The translations under genes were made by a program, and so were the position numbers. Positions 1,185 to 40,748 of a DNA stretch of 40,854 bases are shown in pieces. Position 1 is the first letter of the stretch; every line of letters begins with the position of its first letter. The notes under the pieces were generated by a model that saw only the letters and a program-made list of their open reading frames with translations, was not told where the DNA came from and ran no database searches. Source of the DNA: a virus; the IMG/VR virus record IMGVR_UViG_3300009285_008493, positions 1 to 40,854 of that record; one strand, 5' to 3'.

Positions 1185-1525
1185 TATTTTTTTTGCTCAA
1201 TTTGTCTTAAAACGCTCACTTTAGGCATAGATATATATTTCGGATCATCCTGATAATTAATTTCTTCAAAATTATTCTGTTCAAGATAAACTCTTCTGCC
1301 TTCCCTATAAAAATACCAGTTGCCCTCTTTGTCTTGAGAAAGCGGATAATAATTCCAATGAGGTTTTTTGTCCGGCTCGCTAATTCGCTCAATTGCTTTA
1401 GTGTTTATCAAGTCGCCATTGGCTAATGGAATAAAATCGCTATTAACAATCATTTTCTTGATATAATCCGCCTCATCATCATCTAAGAAATATTCTTTTC
1501 CTGAAATTAACTTTAAAATTTTCAT
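1184..1525 (-). CDS. Hypothetical protein in replication block
   Basis: 113 residues, not recognised. The N-terminal half (MKILKLISGKEYFLDDDEADYI, then a segment NGDLINTKAIERI) has the look of a small beta-strand and helix fold. The middle is rich in Trp and Tyr (HWNYYPL, GNWYFYREG). No cysteines and no membrane segment. It overlaps the replication initiator upstream by 4 bp and touches the 3D-domain gene downstream, so all three are probably translated from one message. Typical of small accessory proteins in phage early operons. Confidence 0.7.
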   Translation of the reverse strand: MKILKLISGKEYFLDDDEADYIKKMIVNSDFIPLANGDLINTKAIERISEPDKKPHWNYYPLSQDKEGNWYFYREGRRVYLEQNNFEEINYQDDPKYISMPKVSVLRQIEQKK

Positions 1526-2289
1526 TCTTTTTGAAATGGCGCGGCCACTTTAACTTTTGCCTGCTGTTGTCGCTGGACAAAAGCTATCAAACTGCCCAAT
1601 TTATTTTTTAACTGCAAGGGTGTTGTTATAACCGGCGCGAATTTTTGGTTTATTGTCGCCGGTAAAATCTTTAAAGTTCTGGTTATTTTCTCAACCCCGT
1701 GTTTTTCTACCAATTCTTCTAACGCTTTGCGCTGAGTTTTATTTTTATAAATATCCGTATAATTTGGATTAACCGGCTTAAAAAATTCAATAAAAAAATT
1801 TAGATTATTATTTTTGGGCAAGTCCGCCGAAGGCGGTTTGCTAATTATATTCTTATCTTCTCTATTCTTATCTACTCTTATCTTATCTAGACATACCACC
1901 TGTTGACCGCTGGTTGCCACTTGGTTGACCGCTGGTTGACCGCTGGTTGCCAATGGAGATGGGCAATTTTTGGCTCTAATTCTATCTTTTCTTGGTTTAT
2001 TATATTTAGTCCATTTAATAAGTTGGACATAAACCTCATCCTCTACTTGATATGTTTTTAGCTTGTTTTTTCGCTCCAAATTCGCCACATAACCATAAAT
2101 TTGCGCATCCGACACGTCATCGTACGGAAAAATCATCGCGCGCAACCACTTCGGATTTCCTTTCAACCTGCCAAAATCGTCTGAAAAAACTATCAATCCA
2201 ATATAAAAAAATCTTATCTGTAAAGGCATTAATCCAAGGTCATCATTTTCAAATAAAGAAGTATAAATTTTACGCCATTGATTTCGCAT
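1522..2289 (-). CDS. Phage replication initiator / replisome organiser (DnaD/O-like)
   Basis: 255 residues. The N-terminal 100 residues resemble the winged-helix domain of phage replisome organisers: LIRFFYIGLIVFSDDFGR-type core, then a helix with WLRAMIFPYDDVSDAQI and a wing leading to YVQLIKWTKYNKPRKDRIRAK. A low-complexity linker follows (Q/V/S repeats, then DKIRVDKNREDKN) and a C-terminal helical region at about 165-240. This layout is that of initiators that bind an origin lying within their own gene. The linker DNA indeed carries 11-bp iterons and AT-rich repeats (see those entries). It follows the 132-residue gene by 2 bp and sits next to the ERF/YqaJ recombination pair, fitting an early replication operon. 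The family assignment rests on pattern, not on alignment. Confidence 0.65.
   Translation of the reverse strand: MRNQWRKIYTSLFENDDLGLMPLQIRFFYIGLIVFSDDFGRLKGNPKWLRAMIFPYDDVSDAQIYGYVANLERKNKLKTYQVEDEVYVQLIKWTKYNKPRKDRIRAKNCPSPLATSGQPAVNQVATSGQQVVCLDKIRVDKNREDKNIISKPPSADLPKNNNLNFFIEFFKPVNPNYTDIYKNKTQRKALEELVEKHGVEKITRTLKILPATINQKFAPVITTPLQLKNKLGSLIAFVQRQQQAKVKVAAPFQKE
1845..1900. other. AT-rich direct repeats, candidate DNA-unwinding element
   Basis: Directly beside the iterons the plus strand reads as repeated TTCTTATCT/CTCTTATCT blocks at roughly 13-bp spacing, AT-rich and pyrimidine-biased, resembling the 13-mer unwinding repeats of bacterial and phage origins. On the coding strand they specify a repetitive DKNR peptide. 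A small GC hairpin (CCGCC-GAA-GGCGG, 1824-1836) lies on the far side. Confidence 0.45.
1902..1956. repeat. 11-bp iterons, candidate replication origin
   Basis: Five 11-bp units lie end to end: GTTGACCGCTG at 1902, 1924 and 1935, with degenerate copies GTTGCCACTTG at 1913 and GTTGCCAATGG at 1946. The period equals about one helical turn, so bound protein subunits would stack on one DNA face. They fall in the linker of the initiator gene, as the lambda origin lies within gene O. Because 11 is not a multiple of 3, the repeat is not explained by a repeated peptide. Confidence 0.55.
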
Positions 2290-3117: not shown

Positions 3118-3717
3118 TCAGAATGTCAATTGTTTTTCTATTTCCTCAATTTCTTTTAAAACCTGCTTTTCCAGTTCAAGATATTCAATAACTTTTTCCT
3201 TAACATCTTTCCGTTTAACTGAAAAATAAAAGAAATCTTTGGGCATGCGCGGGTCATAGAACACAAAATACAGAGTTTTAAGCGTGTCGTTGACTATAAA
3301 GTATTGAAGGACTTGCTCTTCGTAATCTTTGGGTATCTCTTTGGTAAGCAATGCCTCAATATGCCGAGCAGAAGATAAGCATTTGCACTCAACGGCCTCT
3401 GTTTTGCCGATATAACCATCCGGAGAAATGGCTATATCTTTATTGTCGTCTCTCTCCCAAATAACCAAATCAGTATTAACTTTCTTCTTGGTTTCTTTTT
3501 CAAATCTTTCGACTGCCTCTTTTTCAATTCTTTTTCCCCTATCCATAGCTGGCTCGCTATCAGCCGGCAAAGCAACCCTTTCGGCAATCAATTCATAAAA
3601 TCCAATCTTTGGCTTTCCGCCTCTTTTGTTTATTAAATCTTTAAGCCGCGTTCCGGTTATCTTCCCTCGCCGCGCGTCAAGCCATTCCCTTTCGTCATTA
3701 AACTTGACTATTTTCAT
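3118..3717 (-). CDS. YqaJ-like exonuclease (lambda Exo fold)
   Basis: 199 residues, the usual size of phage YqaJ/alkaline exonucleases. Recognisable blocks in order are WLDARRGKITGTRL near residue 12 (the W..R...ITGT entry motif), AMDRGKRIEKEAVERFE at about 57-73 (the conserved G...E helix), then ISPDGYIG and EAVECKC at about 96-112, which supply the catalytic D..ExK-type residues of the PD-(D/E)XK nuclease family. It would resect double-stranded DNA 5' to 3' and load the ERF annealing protein encoded just upstream. The start lies inside the 3' end of the ERF gene, implying translational coupling. Confident on family. Confidence 0.88.
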   Translation of the reverse strand: MKIVKFNDEREWLDARRGKITGTRLKDLINKRGGKPKIGFYELIAERVALPADSEPAMDRGKRIEKEAVERFEKETKKKVNTDLVIWERDDNKDIAISPDGYIGKTEAVECKCLSSARHIEALLTKEIPKDYEEQVLQYFIVNDTLKTLYFVFYDPRMPKDFFYFSVKRKDVKEKVIEYLELEKQVLKEIEEIEKQLTF

Positions 3718-4441
3718 ATTCGTCCCTTTCTTTAACCAAGGCCTCTAAGCGACTAACTATCTCCGCATAGTTTTTTTCAGAGAGGGGTAATTGAACTAAA
3801 TCCTTAATGGATTTTTCTACTTCCGCTTTGGTTTTAGATTCGCGCCCAAGAGTTCTAAGCAGAAGCATTATCTTCGCTTTAGTAGATTTAACATCTGGCT
3901 CTTTATTAACATCAGTGGCATCCGTATCCTCGTCAGCTGTTGAAATTCCTAAAACATCGCAAAAAGCATATCGTTTGGCGAATGTAAGAGCCGAAGCGTA
4001 TTTCTGCGGCGCAGTCATAAATCCCTCTTTGTCAATCGGAACTTCAAAAGAGCTTGTTTCGGAGTGTCCGGCAATATGAGAAACAATAGCAATAGCGCGA
4101 ATAGCATTTTCTTTATTCTCAACCTCCCATTTATAAGAAAGGCTATTGTCCGATAATATCCCTTTAATCTGCTCAATAATCGCTTCTAACGGCGCGTATT
4201 GATACCGGATGGTTCGTCCATCCTTATTTAGAACCTTTTTTGTCTTAGCAATAACGGGGCAACTTTTTTGAAAATTTGATATTGCCTCGTCAAAGGCTTT
4301 CTTGGCCTGATTTTTTTCCCATCTCTCCTGCAACGTCATCAACTTTTCCATTGTTTCAACGGAAACGCCTTTGTCTATTGCCTGAGAGATTAGTCCTTGC
4401 GCTGATTGTTTAACCGGCACAAGTTTATTTTGTTTGTCCAT
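3698..4441 (-). CDS. ERF-family single-strand annealing protein
   Basis: About 247 residues from ATG 4441. The family-typical core is present: YQYAPLEAIIEQIKGIL (about 75-91), a strand with IVSHIAGHSETSSFEVPID, then QKYASALTFAKRYAFCDVLGI and the acidic ADEDTD. ERF proteins anneal complementary single strands during phage recombination and pair with an exonuclease, here the overlapping YqaJ gene. A longer reading from GTG 4495 exists, but its extra 18 residues coincide with a strongly folded leader, so I prefer the ATG. The C-terminal 70 residues are a charged helical tail often used for protein contacts. Confidence 0.88.
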   Translation of the reverse strand: MDKQNKLVPVKQSAQGLISQAIDKGVSVETMEKLMTLQERWEKNQAKKAFDEAISNFQKSCPVIAKTKKVLNKDGRTIRYQYAPLEAIIEQIKGILSDNSLSYKWEVENKENAIRAIAIVSHIAGHSETSSFEVPIDKEGFMTAPQKYASALTFAKRYAFCDVLGISTADEDTDATDVNKEPDVKSTKAKIMLLLRTLGRESKTKAEVEKSIKDLVQLPLSEKNYAEIVSRLEALVKERDEYENSQV

Positions 4442-4811: not shown

Positions 4812-5009
4812 TTATTGGTTTTTATTTTTATCGACCTTTGAAAGTTCTATCGCCCTTTTTTCAGCATTAACAATTTGTCTAACTCTTTCCGCGGTAATTC
4901 CGTCAAACATTTCTCCAATTTCTGCCAAAGTAAAATCCGTATGCTTTCGCACCTTATAAATTTCGTGTCTTCTTTTTTTAGCGTCTCTCCATTTGTATGG
5001 TTTTTTCAT
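4812..5009 (-). CDS. Sigma-70 region-4-like HTH protein
   Basis: 65 residues. Residues about 26-52 (TLAEIGEMFDGITAERVRQI) closely follow the region-4 helix-turn-helix of sigma factors, in which the recognition helix contacts the -35 element (bacterial sigma: TLEEIGE.F.VTRERVRQIE). No other sigma region is present, so this is a stand-alone region-4 module that could act as a small transcription regulator, an anti-sigma partner or an appropriation factor. It is the first gene of the early operon, immediately after a consensus-like promoter and an attenuator-like leader whose terminator ends at this ATG, so it is probably a controlled early regulator. Confidence 0.7.
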   Translation of the reverse strand: MKKPYKWRDAKKRRHEIYKVRKHTDFTLAEIGEMFDGITAERVRQIVNAEKRAIELSKVDKNKNQ

Positions 5010-5143
5010 AAAAAATAGGCGAGTTCCTTATTGAAACTCACCCATTTTTATAATAAACTGATAACAGAGTTGGCTATCTCTTACACTCAGTTGATAGTTT
5101 ATTTTTTAAAGCCCTTTTTGGCTTCTAAAATTGGTGAGTTTCA
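5010..5143 (-). ncRNA. Attenuator/riboswitch-like 5' leader RNA
   Basis: In minus-strand RNA the arm GGTGAGTTTC (5042-5033) has two possible partners. Upstream, GAAACTCACC (5142-5133) pairs perfectly and closes a domain of about 90 nt with inner helices AAGCC/GGCTT and AATAAACT/AGTTTATT. Downstream, GGAACTCGCC (5027-5018) pairs with two G-U wobbles and a 5-nt loop, followed at once by U-A-UUUUUU and the start codon at 5009. The second fold is an intrinsic terminator and also covers the AAGGA ribosome site. The two folds exclude each other, as in a transcriptional riboswitch or attenuator. The class is not recognised. Confidence 0.6.
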
Positions 5144-5155
5144 GGTTGTGCTTAG

Positions 5156-5184
5156 ATATTAATCTATTCTGCAAATGCTGTCAA
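5156..5184 (-). promoter_or_regulatory. Sigma-70-type promoter for the early operon
   Basis: Minus strand TTGACA (5184-5179, perfect -35), a 17-nt spacer and TAATAT (5161-5156) as -10. The predicted start near 5149 lies a few bases before the first arm of the structured leader. Confidence 0.75.
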
Positions 5185-5258
5185 TAGTTTTTCAATGCTC
5201 TAAAAAATGGCTTTGTTGTGCTTATTTTTTTATTCTCAAAAGAAGTTATCCACATTTG

Positions 5259-5283
5259 CCCCGCAAGCGCGGGGTGTTTTTTT
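5259..5283 (+). terminator. Plus-strand intrinsic terminator
   Basis: CCCCGC-AAGC-GCGGGG followed by TG and seven T on the plus strand; no U-tract on the minus strand. It sits at the 3' end of the convergent 72-residue gene. No plus-strand gene precedes it, so it may end an antisense or read-through transcript. Confidence 0.6.
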
Positions 5284-8720: not shown

Positions 8721-8903
8721 ATGATTGACCTTGAGAGGGATTATAAGCTTCTATTAAAGGAATTTACGAAAAAATCTCAAGTTCTAGCGGAAATAAAAAG
8801 AGCCGTCTATAACGGCTCTAATCCTGAAAAAGTCATTGCCTCTGTTAAGAAAGCTTTGGAGCGCTTGAAAAAACCCGTCGGTAATTCCAAGAAAACCCCA
8901 TGA
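8721..8903 (+). CDS. Small helical protein on opposite strand
   Basis: 60 residues, MIDLERDYKLLLKEFTKKSQ then two amphipathic helices ending in a basic tail (LKKPVGNSKKTP). It is not recognised. It lies 165 bp beyond the plus-strand terminator and is one of only two convincing genes on this strand. A GC-rich hairpin, AGAGCCG/CGGCTCT, sits inside the coding sequence. No clear ribosome site. It might be an accessory (moron) gene or a regulator transcribed during lysogeny. Confidence 0.5.
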   Translation: MIDLERDYKLLLKEFTKKSQVLAEIKRAVYNGSNPEKVIASVKKALERLKKPVGNSKKTP

Positions 8904-25165: not shown

Positions 25166-25199
25166 TACCGGCAGGAGAATTTTACTTCTCCTGCCGGTA
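25166..25199 (-). repeat. 14-bp perfect hairpin between virion genes
   Basis: TACCGGCAGGAGAA/TTCTCCTGCCGGTA with a 6-nt loop (25166-25179, 25186-25199). No U-tract follows on the minus strand. An AGGAGAA Shine-Dalgarno-like sequence is buried in the 5' arm. Likely an mRNA-stability or translation-control hairpin. Confidence 0.65.
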
Positions 25200-30045: not shown

Positions 30046-31905
30046 TTATGATAATTTGGTTAATTGATTCTTTAATTCCTTTAAAGCCAACTCTTGCTGA
30101 TCAGGCGGCAACTTTTGAAATTCTGGACTATCTGTTAATTCCTTGGCCTGTTGAGTAAATTGAGATAATTGTTGCGCCTTTTCCGCGTTTTGCTGTTCCG
30201 GAGTAGGCATAGTTCCGGCTGCTTGTTGCAGGTTGATATGCTCTTTTTCGCCTAATTCAATAATCGATAAAGGATTTATTTTATACATTATTGCTCTTTT
30301 AGCCATTTCAAGCGGATTATCTCGTCCGGTTTCCTCAAAATATGTTAACGGATCAATGATTCCTGCTATAACCTCTTCTTTGGCACGCTCGCCTTTGAAT
30401 AGTCTATCTTCCGGCATAACCTGTCCGGGAATAATCTTTACTTCAATTCCGTCCATCATTTCATCTCTCATTAAAGATAAAGTTCTAGTTGCTTTTTCTC
30501 CGCCAAGAGTTTTGATTAATCGCTTTTCCGTATATTTAACTAAAATCATCTGATACATCCACTCATAAATACCTCTATGAAGTTGATCGACTAAATCTAT
30601 GCATTCATCAAGCCGGTTATAACTCTGTTCGCGTAAAATAGATCGTCCGGTAGCTGTCTCAGTTCCGCCTTTCTCTCCGCGAAAAGTAGGCTGAGTTCCA
30701 AAAATATTATCAAGTTCTATCGTTGAGTGAACCATGTCGTCCTTGACAAAAGACGGCAATTCCTTTCCTGTTTCTATTGACACTCCATTTTTAACTCCTT
30801 CTCCATACCACATTCCGCGCGGATTTGATTTAGCTTTTTGCGCGTCTGCTTTAGAAATCTTGCAAAACTTTGTATCAATTTTATAAACTCCATTCATCAT
30901 TTCCGCATTATCGGAAATTTGTCTTTTTCGTTTATCGATTTCTTCCTGCAATGGCTCAACCTGTTCGATTAAAGATGTGGTGCCAACCGGCCCCTCTTCA
31001 ATATCGAGAATAGTTCCAAAAATATATGGTGGTAATGGATTATCAAAATAATTATAAAGATATGTTTCATATCCCTCTGTCATGTCCTTTCTTTCTTCCT
31101 GTTTTCCTTTTATATCTTTTGCTATTGTTCCCCTTTTCTCTCCCTCTGTTTCTCTAAAATCAATCATCTCTTGAGTATTCATTTTCATTCCATCCCAATC
31201 CCAATACGGATGAGGATCACAACCAAGAATAATTCCCGAATACTCCCAAATAACATATCCATCAATCCAACACTCTTTATACGTGTCTTTAGGATTATCA
31301 ATCACAAGTTGCTCTTCTTTATACCCTGATTTTTTTAAAATATTTTCCTTTTTTTCTGGAAACTTCTCAATCAAATCAGAGATAGAAGTTCCATCGATTT
31401 CCTCAATAACAAACTTCGTATCGTACATAGACGTTGCTTTTCTTGAAACTCTTATCTTTCGCGGATCGCAAACTCGCAAATCAAAATCGTCTTTATCCTG
31501 ATGCCAAAATACTTTAAAACATATAAATCGCGAGAGAAACAACCATCTTAATCCTTTCCTCATTTTCCCCTTAATCTTCAAATCTTGATATTTAGTTAAA
31601 AAGAAGTCTTGCAAATCATTTGCGATAACTTTCGCTTCTTTTGTTTCTTTGTCAGCAATGACGTTAGGTTTTGATGGCCGGCCGGTAAGAGTATTAATAA
31701 CACTCTCCATTGCAAGGAACACTCTATTATCCCGGGCCTTTGACCTCTTCTTCGGGATTTCTTTAAGCCATTCCGGATTATTTTTCCAAATCTTTAGATT
31801 CTTTTCGAATGTTTTTTCAACGACAGAAAACAAATCAGCTGATTCATCCCATCTATTTTTTATCAACCTTATTTTTTCATCATCTTTTAAAGTAGAAATA
31901 TTCAT
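30046..31905 (-). CDS. Portal protein
   Basis: 619 residues, the size of podovirus-type portals. Segments that fit: N-terminal wing helices (NRWDESADLFSVVEKTFEKN), clip-adjacent PPYIFGTILDIEEGPVGTTS, the stem-type helix EQVEPLQEEIDKRKRQISDN, an insertion with MWYGEGVKNGVSIETG, and GGTETATGRSIL leading into the crown helices. The C-terminal tail is Gln-rich (LQQAAGTMPTPEQQNAEKAQ). It forms the 12-subunit ring through which DNA is packaged. Context: terminase upstream, scaffold and capsid downstream. TAATG overlap with a tiny gene. Confidence 0.8.
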   Translation of the reverse strand: MNISTLKDDEKIRLIKNRWDESADLFSVVEKTFEKNLKIWKNNPEWLKEIPKKRSKARDNRVFLAMESVINTLTGRPSKPNVIADKETKEAKVIANDLQDFFLTKYQDLKIKGKMRKGLRWLFLSRFICFKVFWHQDKDDFDLRVCDPRKIRVSRKATSMYDTKFVIEEIDGTSISDLIEKFPEKKENILKKSGYKEEQLVIDNPKDTYKECWIDGYVIWEYSGIILGCDPHPYWDWDGMKMNTQEMIDFRETEGEKRGTIAKDIKGKQEERKDMTEGYETYLYNYFDNPLPPYIFGTILDIEEGPVGTTSLIEQVEPLQEEIDKRKRQISDNAEMMNGVYKIDTKFCKISKADAQKAKSNPRGMWYGEGVKNGVSIETGKELPSFVKDDMVHSTIELDNIFGTQPTFRGEKGGTETATGRSILREQSYNRLDECIDLVDQLHRGIYEWMYQMILVKYTEKRLIKTLGGEKATRTLSLMRDEMMDGIEVKIIPGQVMPEDRLFKGERAKEEVIAGIIDPLTYFEETGRDNPLEMAKRAIMYKINPLSIIELGEKEHINLQQAAGTMPTPEQQNAEKAQQLSQFTQQAKELTDSPEFQKLPPDQQELALKELKNQLTKLS

Positions 31906-35286: not shown

Positions 35287-35509
35287 TTTTACTTTGAATT
35301 AAATCCGTTATTATAATTACTGGTTCATTTCGCCAAGATAAAAAATCATCAACCATTCTTACTTCAATCTTTCCTTCCCTAATAATTTCCTTTATCCGCG
35401 CAAAAGAAATATCCAGCAAATCACCTTCTTTTTTGTCATAAAGCTCTGCATATCTATCAGTTTCTATAATCACTTTAGCATAAAAGGAAGTAGCATTTTT
35501 TTTAATCAT
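35267..35509 (-). CDS. Small hypothetical protein after groL
   Basis: 80 residues from ATG 35509, which overlaps the end of the chaperonin gene (a start 24 bp earlier is less likely). MIKKNATSFYAKVIIETDRY begins a beta-alpha fold; the middle (SFARIKEIIREGKIEVRMVD) is helical and charged. Not recognised. Its stop overlaps the small-terminase start. Confidence 0.6.
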   Translation of the reverse strand: MIKKNATSFYAKVIIETDRYAELYDKKEGDLLDISFARIKEIIREGKIEVRMVDDFLSWRNEPVIIITDLIQSKNGEKKN

Positions 35510-37085
35510 TTTTTTTCTCCTTTTCAACTTCATTAATAATCACAGCTTCAGCAATAAGAAACATACTGACAACTGATACCGCATTTTCTAAAGCGCAACG
35601 CACGACCTTTGCCGGATCTATAACACCGGCTTTTATTAAATCAACATATTCGCCGGTTGCGGAATTGAACCCTTGCCCCTCGCATTTAGACAAAACCACA
35701 TCCGGCTTATGACCGGCATTAAGAAGTATCTGCCGAGCCGGATCAATAATGCTTTCCGCAATTATTTCCATTCCAACACGAAAAGATAAATCCGTTTCGC
35801 TTGATAACCTTTCCTGAACTGCTTTTGAACACTCAACTAAAGCCATTCCACCGCCTGGAACAATCCCTTCGTCTAATGAAGATTTAGCTGCCTTAACCGC
35901 GTCCTCAATACGATACCGCCTTTCCATATTTTCCGCTTCTGAAACTGATCCGACCTTTATAACGGCAACTCCGCCTTTTAACCTGGCAAGTCGTTCCTCT
36001 TTTCTCTCCCTTTCATATTCCGACCGCTCCAGTTCTATATCTTTTTTAATCTGCGCGGCCCGGCTATCAATATCCTCTTTCTTGCCTTTGCCATCGATAA
36101 TAATGGTGTTATCTTTGTTGATTATAATCCGCGTGGCCTGGCCCAAATCCTCCAAATCAACATCTTCAACTTTTTGCCCCATTTCCTCTGAAATAAACTT
36201 CGCGCCGGTTAATGCGGCAATATCTTTTAATTGCTCCCTTTTCTCATCTCCTATCCCAGGACAAGCAACAGCGGCAATAGCCATTATTCCCCTCGCTTTA
36301 TTCATGACCAATGAAGCAAGCGCCTCTCCTTTAACAGTATCGGCAACTACAAAAAGACTTCTATTGTCCGATTGGAAAACCGCTTCAAGAAATCTCATAA
36401 CATCCTGATTAGACGAAATAATCTGCGAAGTAACTAGAACATATGGGTTTTCCAAAACCGTTTCTCCCCTTTCCGCATTAGTAATAAAATATGGAGAAAT
36501 ATAGCCCTTCTCTAACTTCATTCCCTCGACTATTTCAGAATATAATCCAACAAGTTTTCCTTCCTCAACTGCAATAACCCCTTCTTTCCCAATATTATCA
36601 ATTATTTCAGCGATTAAATCTCCAACTTCCCTGTCGCGCGAAGAAATTGTCGCAATATCGGAAATCTCCTGTTTTGTGCTAACCTCAATCGATAAATCCT
36701 TGATTGTTTTTTTGGCTATTCCAAGCGCCTCTTCCATTCCTTTTTTCATTTTCGTATGATCAATCCCGGCCGATAGAGCTTTAATGCCCTGCGATAAAAT
36801 ACTCTGGGCTAAAATCGTCGCCGTTGTTGTTCCATCCCCGGCTTCTTTATCTGTCTTGCGCGCTACATCCATCACTAGCCGCGCGCCCATATTTTCTGCC
36901 TGATCCTTCAGCTGAATCTCTCTAGCAACGGTAACTCCGTCTAAAGAAAAAATAGGTGTTCCTCTTTCAAACACAACGGCTTTGCCTTTAGGGCCAAGCG
37001 TTACTTTAACCGCATTAGCTAATTTATCAACTCCGCGTTTAAGCGCCGCGCGCGCATTGTCATTATAAATAATTGTTTTACTCAT
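35502..37085 (-). CDS. groL: GroEL chaperonin, full length
   Basis: 527 residues. All main parts are present: TLGPKGKAV (nucleotide loop), LKDQAENMG (Asp52 equivalent), AGDGTTTATILAQ (Asp87 region), apical GYISPYFITNAE with the substrate-binding aromatic residues, hinge region and RIEDAVKAAKSSLDEGIVPGGG (Asp398 equivalent). The C-terminus ends in charged residues (NEVEKEKKND) and lacks the Gly-Gly-Met tail of bacterial GroEL. It refolds proteins in a closed chamber with GroES, encoded about 0.4 kb upstream. A complete pair is unusual for a phage of this size and may help fold the capsid or fibre. It overlaps genes on both sides. Confidence 0.95.
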   Translation of the reverse strand: MSKTIIYNDNARAALKRGVDKLANAVKVTLGPKGKAVVFERGTPIFSLDGVTVAREIQLKDQAENMGARLVMDVARKTDKEAGDGTTTATILAQSILSQGIKALSAGIDHTKMKKGMEEALGIAKKTIKDLSIEVSTKQEISDIATISSRDREVGDLIAEIIDNIGKEGVIAVEEGKLVGLYSEIVEGMKLEKGYISPYFITNAERGETVLENPYVLVTSQIISSNQDVMRFLEAVFQSDNRSLFVVADTVKGEALASLVMNKARGIMAIAAVACPGIGDEKREQLKDIAALTGAKFISEEMGQKVEDVDLEDLGQATRIIINKDNTIIIDGKGKKEDIDSRAAQIKKDIELERSEYERERKEERLARLKGGVAVIKVGSVSEAENMERRYRIEDAVKAAKSSLDEGIVPGGGMALVECSKAVQERLSSETDLSFRVGMEIIAESIIDPARQILLNAGHKPDVVLSKCEGQGFNSATGEYVDLIKAGVIDPAKVVRCALENAVSVVSMFLIAEAVIINEVEKEKKND

Positions 37086-37504
37086 TTTTGTTTTTCCTCC
37101 TTTTTATTATGGTTTATTATTTTTTCGACATCAGTCAAAAACTCCTCGTCAATCTTTTTGTCCAAATCCTCAAGGTCAAGCTTGTGAATGGTTCGTAATA
37201 TTCTTTGCTGATTTTTATATCTATTCTGTTCAATAGTAAATGCTTCCCCAACCTTAACTTTAATTTGCAGTTGGCTTCCGTCTGGCTGCCTTGGCCCAGG
37301 CCGGGTAAAAGCAGTCGCATTCTTATCTGAAATTTCCGCCCATATATTCATGTTAATTAACGCAGAAATTAACTCTTTCAAATGATAATTATGAAAATCA
37401 TTTAAAATATCTGTATGATTTTGCCGGCCAAGCAACTGACCGCGCAATGATAATAAAAATTTATTTGCTTCTTCCGCCTCCGGAGGATAAAATGGATTAT
37501 TCAT
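37082..37504 (-). CDS. Unknown protein between groS and groL
   Basis: 140 residues from ATG 37504, which overlaps the groS stop; a start 9 bp earlier (MQF) is also possible. Charged and helical, with NPFYPPEAEEANKFLLSLRG near the start and a beta segment QLQIKVKVGEAFTIEQNR in the middle. Not recognised. It overlaps groL by 4 bp. Its stable place between the two chaperonin genes suggests a linked role, such as a client or cofactor. Confidence 0.6.
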   Translation of the reverse strand: MNNPFYPPEAEEANKFLLSLRGQLLGRQNHTDILNDFHNYHLKELISALINMNIWAEISDKNATAFTRPGPRQPDGSQLQIKVKVGEAFTIEQNRYKNQQRILRTIHKLDLEDLDKKIDEEFLTDVEKIINHNKKEEKQK

Positions 37505-37751
37505 AAATTGCATATACGTCCTTTTCGCGCACGACATAAAACTTCTTTCCGTCAATTTTTATCTCGCGCACAATAAAAGGATTAAAAATTACTACATCAT
37601 TAACCTTTATTTTTTCAACCTGATCGCCAACTCCGGCAACAATAGCGGTTGATTTTTTATCTTTGGATATATCCGAAAGGATAATCCCATCCTCTTTGTC
37701 TTTTTCCTTGGCATAAGACAAAAGGATATAATCATTAAGTGGTTTAATCAT
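37497..37751 (-). CDS. groS: GroES co-chaperonin
   Basis: 84 residues, slightly short for the family. MIKPLNDYILLSYAKEKDKE is the usual first strand. The mobile loop keeps its hydrophobic tip (DGIILSD; bacterial GGIVLT). Later strands VNDVVIFNPF and KFYVVREKDVYAIYE match the closing barrel. Forms a seven-subunit lid for GroEL. No CIRCE (HrcA) element is seen upstream. The 104 bp upstream contain no gene that I can support. Confidence 0.9.
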   Translation of the reverse strand: MIKPLNDYILLSYAKEKDKEDGIILSDISKDKKSTAIVAGVGDQVEKIKVNDVVIFNPFIVREIKIDGKKFYVVREKDVYAIYE

Positions 37752-39846: not shown

Positions 39847-40668
39847 TTATACATAGCTCGGAGCAAAGCGCTGGTAATCATTTTTGACACCAAATGTAAT
39901 TGACCTTAAATACAAAAATGTCGTGTCAATCCATGCATGCCTGAGCTGTTCCTTAATTATAAATATTGACGCGCCGCGATACAGCATGTTCGTGGCAAGA
40001 GAATGTCTAAAAATATACGGATATACTCTCTTTTTTATTCCCGTCCTTCGCGCTAAAACTTTTACAAATTTCCGCAAATCGTTCTCGTTATATCTATTAT
40101 TCCGAACTAATGTCGTGAAAAGATAATCATCCGGGCCGCGAGGAAAAATCATTAAATACTCAATAACGATTTTTGTGCATTCCCCTGAAACATACGAAAG
40201 CCCGTCTTTGATTCCCTTGCCCTCAATCACCCGGATAACATTATTGCCCAAATCCACATCCCGGGTCCGCAGATTACAGATTTCCTTGGGTCTGATTCCT
40301 GAATAGGCCAGGACAGCTAAAATGGCCTTCTCCCGCGCGTTTCGCGTGTGGTGCATCATGTTAACCACCTCTGCCTCGGTTAACGTATCTTTGACAATAG
40401 GCTTGGGCTTTCTCATCCGACCCAGCTTCATCGGCCGGCCGATGAAATCCATCCACAATTCGGCTGACCGGATTGAATTATGAATATACGAAAAAGAGTA
40501 TTTCCTATCGTGCATCCATGCAATATATTCTATAACCTGATTATGAGATGGTTTCTCTCTGCCTATATGCCGGAGCATGATATCGATATTTTTCATATAT
40601 CCGGCAATCGTAACAAAACGCAACCCTTTCCTCACCAATAAATATTGGCGAAACTTTTCGTTTTTCAT
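39847..40668 (-). CDS. Tyrosine recombinase (integrase/Xer-like)
   Basis: 273 residues from ATG 40668. The alternative start at 40740 would add 24 residues across a hairpin region, so I prefer the shorter form. N-terminal SAM-like domain is followed by the catalytic domain: Arg126 (YSGIRPKEI), Lys151 (EGKGIKDG), Arg221 and His222 in YIFRHSLATNM, His244 (LRHAWIDTT) and Tyr253 (FLYLRS). The first histidine of the usual HxxR motif is Tyr218. It would catalyse site-specific recombination, probably for integration or for resolving genome multimers. No excisionase gene is visible next to it. Confidence 0.85.
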   Translation of the reverse strand: MKNEKFRQYLLVRKGLRFVTIAGYMKNIDIMLRHIGREKPSHNQVIEYIAWMHDRKYSFSYIHNSIRSAELWMDFIGRPMKLGRMRKPKPIVKDTLTEAEVVNMMHHTRNAREKAILAVLAYSGIRPKEICNLRTRDVDLGNNVIRVIEGKGIKDGLSYVSGECTKIVIEYLMIFPRGPDDYLFTTLVRNNRYNENDLRKFVKVLARRTGIKKRVYPYIFRHSLATNMLYRGASIFIIKEQLRHAWIDTTFLYLRSITFGVKNDYQRFAPSYV

Positions 40669-40690
40669 ATACAACTGAAGCCTATCAAGA

Positions 40691-40748
40691 CAAGCGGAGT
40701 TGTATATGCCGCTGGTTGGTAATGCCAACCAGTGAAACATGCCGCTTG
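40691..40748. repeat. Nested inverted repeats upstream of recombinase
   Basis: Inner perfect hairpin CTGGTTGG-TAATG-CCAACCAG (40712-40732) and outer arms CAAGCGG (40691-40697) and CCGCTTG (40742-40748). ATGCCGCT also occurs twice in direct orientation (40706, 40739). Could be an attachment or regulatory site for the recombinase, or an mRNA hairpin; a small 26-codon frame crosses it and is not supported. Confidence 0.45.

Follow-up and report, generated by a model that had tools for sequence, protein, structure and literature searches.

What controls the early genes of a phage whose early promoter is separated from its first gene by a structured leader? This question is raised by positions 5010–5184 of IMG/VR record IMGVR_UViG_3300009285_008493, which was analysed over its whole length of 40,854 nucleotides (40.8 kb), referred to here as the window. 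The initial annotation of this segment read it as a riboswitch-like attenuator of the early operon. The leader is here considered most probably to be an attenuator of early transcription controlled by the occupation of its upstream arm, most likely by an antisense RNA, a reading given a probability of about one half.

The early promoter and the anatomy of the leader

All of the elements named in the initial annotation are present where it placed them, on the minus strand. The features of the promoter and leader are, in order of transcription:

5156–5184, minus strand: early promoter, with −35 TTGACA at 5184–5179, a 17-nt spacer and −10 TAATAT at 5161–5156; transcription start expected near 5149
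5127–5143, minus strand: arm A, TGAAACTCACCAATTTT, with core GAAACTCACC at 5142–5133; 5' strand of the anti-terminator helix
5108–5125, minus strand: inner hairpin 1, of 6 bp, from computed folds
5052–5103, minus strand: inner hairpin 2, of 8 + 3 + 4 bp, interrupted by internal loops and capped by an apical loop of 14 nt, from computed folds
5032–5048, minus strand: shared arm B, AAAATGGGTGAGTTTCA, with core GGTGAGTTTC at 5042–5033; 3' strand of A:B or 5' strand of B:C
5028–5045, minus strand: possible leader peptide, a 5-codon ORF (ATG GGT GAG TTT CAA TAA) that overlaps arm B and the terminator loop
5010–5027, minus strand: arm C, GGAACTCGCC, at 5027–5018, and the U-tract TATTTTTT at 5017–5010; 3' side of the intrinsic terminator

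The promoter is among the best-scoring minus-strand matches of a 9-kb scan and is correctly positioned; by itself the match is not significant, with 29 such matches found against 25 expected. The leader that follows is approximately 140 nt long (5149–5010), with the ATG of the first gene at 5009. Its A and B cores are perfect complements, and the extended A:B helix pairs at 16 of 17 positions with a single mismatch. As had been described, this pairing closes a domain of about 90 nt with at least two inner helices, since the interval between A and B holds both the 6-bp hairpin and the long interrupted hairpin.

The alternative pairing of B is with C. The terminator in the initial annotation is present, but it is longer than the 10 bp assigned to it, the extended B:C helix having 17 continuous pairs, two of them G-U wobbles, because the U-tract also takes part, pairing with the A-run that precedes B. 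Such wobbles are tolerated by RNA and would not be kept by a DNA palindrome. The terminator has an AATAA loop and the tail TATTTTTT, and ends one base short of the start codon. The only candidate for a leader peptide is the 5-codon ORF inside arm B, the upstream context of which is A-rich.

A terminator and an anti-terminator that exclude one another by sharing one arm are found between a promoter and a gene, which is the arrangement that defines an attenuator. The leader is thus probably an attenuator whose termination is regulated in one way or another, and this part of the original reading is well supported by the anatomy and by the folding energies.

The operon, the phage and its host

The identified genes of the phage are all on the minus strand. 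Those of the early operon are:

4812–5009, minus strand: first early-operon gene, encoding a small HTH protein of 65 aa with a Sigma70_r4 match (E 1.9e-5)
3698–4441, minus strand: ERF recombinase, a single-strand annealing protein
3118–3717, minus strand: YqaJ/RecE-like exonuclease
1522–2289, minus strand: replication initiation protein (match to replication initiation protein phrogs, E 1.3e-15), approximately 3 kb downstream of the leader

Small ORFs are also present downstream of the leader. Both the sigma-region-4-like nature of the first gene and the presence of replication and recombination genes downstream, which had been read from the sequence alone, agree with these matches.

A tyrosine integrase is encoded at 39847–40740, which suggests that the phage is temperate. 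The one cellular relative of the ERF protein that was found is in a Patescibacteria genome (58% identity), and it is only this relative that suggests a Patescibacteria host; when the ERF profile was run against 380 Patescibacteria genomes, solely the genome already known was matched. A GroEL-like chaperonin and a GroES-like co-chaperonin, judged by eye from the translations, are also apparent on the minus strand at 35502–37085 and 37497–37751.

Two alternative folds

The 140-nt leader folds at −39.9 kcal/mol, compared with −21.2 ± 3.0 kcal/mol for shuffled sequences (z = −6.3), and the leader window has the lowest z among the 815 minus-strand windows of a sliding fold scan. Within the window, a scan for an arm shared between a terminator and an upstream helix gave only the leader and one weak match, and no such case occurred in 20 dinucleotide shuffles of the whole 40.8 kb. 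Under a stricter rule there are three strong intrinsic terminators in the 40.8 kb: that of the leader, one at 8819–8799 on the minus strand, and one at 5257–5276 on the plus strand.

For the full leader the terminator fold (−39.9 kcal/mol) is favoured over the A:B fold (−37.4 kcal/mol) by 2.5 kcal/mol, these energies being rough values from the standard model at 37 °C, a temperature from which that of the host may differ. As the transcript lengthens, A:B is the better fold between roughly nt 112 and nt 136, with a lead of 8.3 kcal/mol at nt 125 and 4.7 kcal/mol at nt 131. The order of the two folds is reversed at nt 137–140, once the U-tract is included. Because the last bases are still inside the polymerase at the U-tract, and A:B is favoured until then, read-through is the predicted default, the co-transcriptional order being taken from equilibrium energies.

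Relatives of the phage and of the leader

Searches with ERF or YqaJ identified related phages that are 48–71% identical in ERF, and in one of these (L002) the gene order of small HTH gene, 56-aa gene and ERF is retained. The leader is missing from all of the relatives found. In L002, L003, L041, L044, L064, L073 and L092 the −10 hexamer and the start of the first small gene are 6 nt apart; the distance is approximately 15 nt in L045, compared with 146 nt in this phage. A spacing of 6 nt implies that the early mRNA of those relatives is nearly or fully leaderless. Since the equivalent gene in relatives usually starts about 6 nt past the −10 box, the leader looks like a lineage-specific acquisition. 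Long structured early regions are present in L045, L071, L068 and L077, with sequences unrelated to the leader.

The leader could not be linked to a known family. Rfam 15 gave no matches for the whole window at the gathering score and none at E≤1; for the leader at E≤10 the best leader-type match was L20_leader, at 18.5 bits against a threshold of 58.7, and no relevant family was found in seven related loci. This agrees with the original observation that no known class is recognised. The covariance search proposed there as a check used a model of the A:B domain, R1, made from a single sequence entered twice and therefore a weak model in which absence is not proof; it found no relative, matching solely itself and its own reverse complement in 65 loci, nothing in 17 phage records, and one sequence at chance level (E 0.03) in 380 genomes. 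Comparison of the leader DNA with 14 related records returned just short matches at chance level, a search of phage records for distant DNA similarity returned one irrelevant 38-nt match, and pattern scans of 2.9 million viral contigs gave five unrelated matches to the terminator and two to the A..B pair. No relatives of the 65-aa protein or of its 72-aa upstream neighbour were found in viral contigs. With no Rfam match and no homologous leader, a conserved ligand pocket is not shown, and the riboswitch or ligand part of the initial annotation is not upheld. A shared-arm candidate in L014 was judged to be due to chance, its upstream match being in a coding region and its pairing partly G-U.

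Other structured sites were seen in the window and in relatives. A strong hairpin of 60–75 nt without a U-run lies directly before the ERF start codon (4516–4451, minus strand), and comparable pre-ERF hairpins of unrelated sequence, with z of about −4 to −7, are found in L002 (1545–1636), L003 (5820–5925) and L042 (5105–5195), the last having two helices that interleave in a pseudoknot-like manner. The gap before the gene at 30046–31905 (32220–31985, minus strand) contains two strong helical domains in tandem, AGCCCTGC..GCAGGGCT and GTTTTTCCGGGG..CCCCCGGAAGAACAAAAAC; between them is a U-rich stretch that pairs with the latter, so that this is perhaps another switch. Strong intergenic hairpins of unrelated sequence occupy the same gene junction at 25199–25166 of the window and near 11766 in L014. 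In L077 a very structured gap of 345 nt (3656–3997, −128 kcal/mol) contains a pair of related elements, GTAGAGTTACTCT..AGAGTAACTCTAC and GTAGGGCTATTCT..AGAATAGCTCTAC, whose differences compensate one another. An ORF in L068 (3084–3383) that by eye resembles a KH-domain RNA-binding protein adjoins a highly structured gap of 340 nt. No paper on structured RNAs in Patescibacteria phages was found in a limited literature collection.

The opposite strand

Two features of the plus strand bear on what might occupy arm A:

5257–5283, plus strand: strong intrinsic terminator, GCCCCGC-AAGC-GCGGGGT (hairpin 5257–5276) followed by T7; candidate 3' end of an antisense RNA
5031–5059, plus strand: weak site resembling a promoter, TTGAAA-17-TAAACT, together with a perfect TATAAT at 5049–5054; candidate antisense start near 5061–5067

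Of the strong terminators in the window, the hairpin at 5257–5276 alone is on the plus strand. It lies immediately behind the early promoter, is oriented back across the leader, and has no plus-strand gene to serve. A strong terminator in this location, with no gene, suggests that an antisense RNA crosses arm A. The promoter-like site is not a significant match, and such matches occur by chance. A putative transcript from 5061–5067 would be complementary to A and to most of the inner domain, and not to B or C. Relatives L002, L003, L041, L042, L044 and L076 also have a hairpin upstream of the early promoter, with its U-run on the early strand and therefore in the opposite orientation, as expected of a late-operon terminator. 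The plus-strand hairpin could instead be a degenerate late-operon terminator, and the putative antisense RNA is the least secure step of the mechanism set out below.

The only perfect DnaA box of the window (TTATCCACA, 5246–5254, plus strand) is in the same region, 62 bp upstream of the −35 of the early promoter. The same 9-mer is found close upstream of an early promoter in L002 (1156 and 4436), L042 (4475), L044 (4925), L064 (3296) and L073 (2746), and in the corresponding intergenic region of L004, L048 and L067.

Proposed mechanism

RNA polymerase would start near 5149, and A would pair with the emerging B before C exists, so that read-through occurs by default. Occupation of arm A, or anything that keeps the upper domain apart, would let B:C form, and the 17-bp hairpin with its U-tract would stop transcription just before the first gene. 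The occupier of arm A would most likely be an RNA, an antisense transcript starting near 5061–5067 and ending at the plus-strand terminator at 5257–5276. By covering arm A and not B or C, this RNA would follow the logic of the pIP501 and pT181 antisense attenuators. Such a switch may hold off replication and recombination in lysogeny, or may provide feedback with copy number. That an RNA on arm A is the signal is plausible, at somewhat under even odds; that this RNA is a cis-antisense transcript is put forward tentatively, as a possibility only.

If this mechanism is correct, such a phage has all of its replication and recombination genes behind a compact RNA switch, at a point where the mRNA of related phages has almost no leader. 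The mechanism predicts an antisense RNA ending near 5283 and a short sense RNA ending near 5010. A broader and speculative proposal, considered rather unlikely as a whole, is that a plasmid-type antisense attenuator was gained by a probable Patescibacteria phage between its early promoter and a gene that is leaderless in relatives, so that the whole block of replication and recombination genes would respond to the copy number of the phage or to its lysogenic state; the unrelated structured leaders of relatives would then indicate that RNA gates of this kind are fast-evolving and replaceable.

Alternative explanations

The leader may instead sense a metabolite or an RNA-binding protein that stabilises or destabilises the A:B-closed domain and so sets read-through. 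A multi-helix domain closed by the switching helix, with a terminator directly before the gene, is indeed the layout of transcriptional riboswitches. This explanation is nevertheless unlikely, given the lack of an Rfam match in the window at E up to 1 and of any relative found with R1, and given the strength, for a ligand-gated P1, of a closing helix of 11 + 5 bp (−18.1 kcal/mol); no RNA-binding role is known for the small HTH protein. The hairpin at 5049–5011 could also be an ordinary terminator that mainly ends transcripts arriving from the lysis genes, the A arm being incidental or permitting unregulated read-through and the 140-nt product perhaps being a small RNA. There is no strong minus-strand terminator from the lysis genes to 5010, whereas relatives have one upstream of the early promoter. 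However, a terminator placed after the early promoter would shut off the early genes as well, and a 16/17 complement of a 5' arm just past the start site is not expected by chance, making this explanation quite improbable.

Complementarity of B to one upstream and one downstream segment also recalls the CI RNA, seqA and seqC of satellite phage P4 (PMC4825925), and a processed arm-B piece of the leader might act in trans on nascent arm A to shut the early operon in a lysogen. The tyrosine integrase of the phage is consistent with such immunity, but no processing site is recognised, B would be locked in B:C within the terminated RNA, and a crude scan of the P4 record did not cleanly isolate seqA, seqB and seqC; this is held to be very unlikely. 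Poorer still are the prospects of a DNA element, in which the three 10-bp repeats would be protein-binding sites, either operator half-sites or origin iterons, near the DnaA box at 5246–5254. The three related 10-mers do occur in both orientations close to that box, and the iterons of the P4 origin show the same alternating pattern. Against this, further copies of the 10-mer are at chance level (27 found against 26 expected, with 2 mismatches), there is no reversal of GC skew in the leader and DnaA-box region, and the complementarity beyond the 10-mer, the G-U wobbles and the U-tract make sense solely in RNA.

Comparison with known systems

RNAIII of pIP501 and the antisense RNA of pT181 are antisense attenuators that act on leader targets (PMC4981023; PMC3753616). 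As in those systems, the leader described here precedes a set of genes that includes a replication initiator (1522–2289), there is a choice between anti-terminator and terminator, and a candidate antisense transcript would cover the upstream part of the leader. A gene for a small DNA-binding protein is nearby, as is that for CopR in pIP501 (PMC4981023; PMC3753616). Unlike these plasmids, this is a phage, in which the antisense RNA is putative and the operon opens with an HTH protein gene and reaches the initiator several genes later; the likeness is one of layout, with no sequence relation seen.

Among phages, the replication genes of P4 are blocked by RNA-controlled premature termination, in which CI RNA pairs with upstream seqA and downstream seqC (PMC4825925). 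The initial annotation was therefore not right to regard as new the control of a whole early block in a phage. Here too a segment complementary to both upstream and downstream segments lies in the leader of a phage replication operon. The downstream pairing here differs in forming the intrinsic terminator itself, and a processed RNA of the P4 type is not known in this phage. The HK022 put RNA, which binds RNA polymerase and suppresses distant terminators, is similarly a structured RNA just past a phage early promoter that affects termination (PMC9378689), whereas the present leader carries its own terminator. The IsrK locus of Gifsy-1 is comparable in having a prophage promoter, a short RNA whose 3' end is set by an intrinsic terminator, and read-through into downstream genes; in the part of its description that was available, IsrK acts on translation of the read-through mRNA and no shared-arm switch is described.

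The shared-arm expression platform is common to transcriptional riboswitches and T-box leaders, from which the leader differs in having no family match and no conserved aptamer or T-box sequence that could be found. The leader works like known attenuators, yet is not assignable to any sequence family. It should most likely be seen as an on/off switch of the plasmid or phage type, rather than as a new riboswitch.
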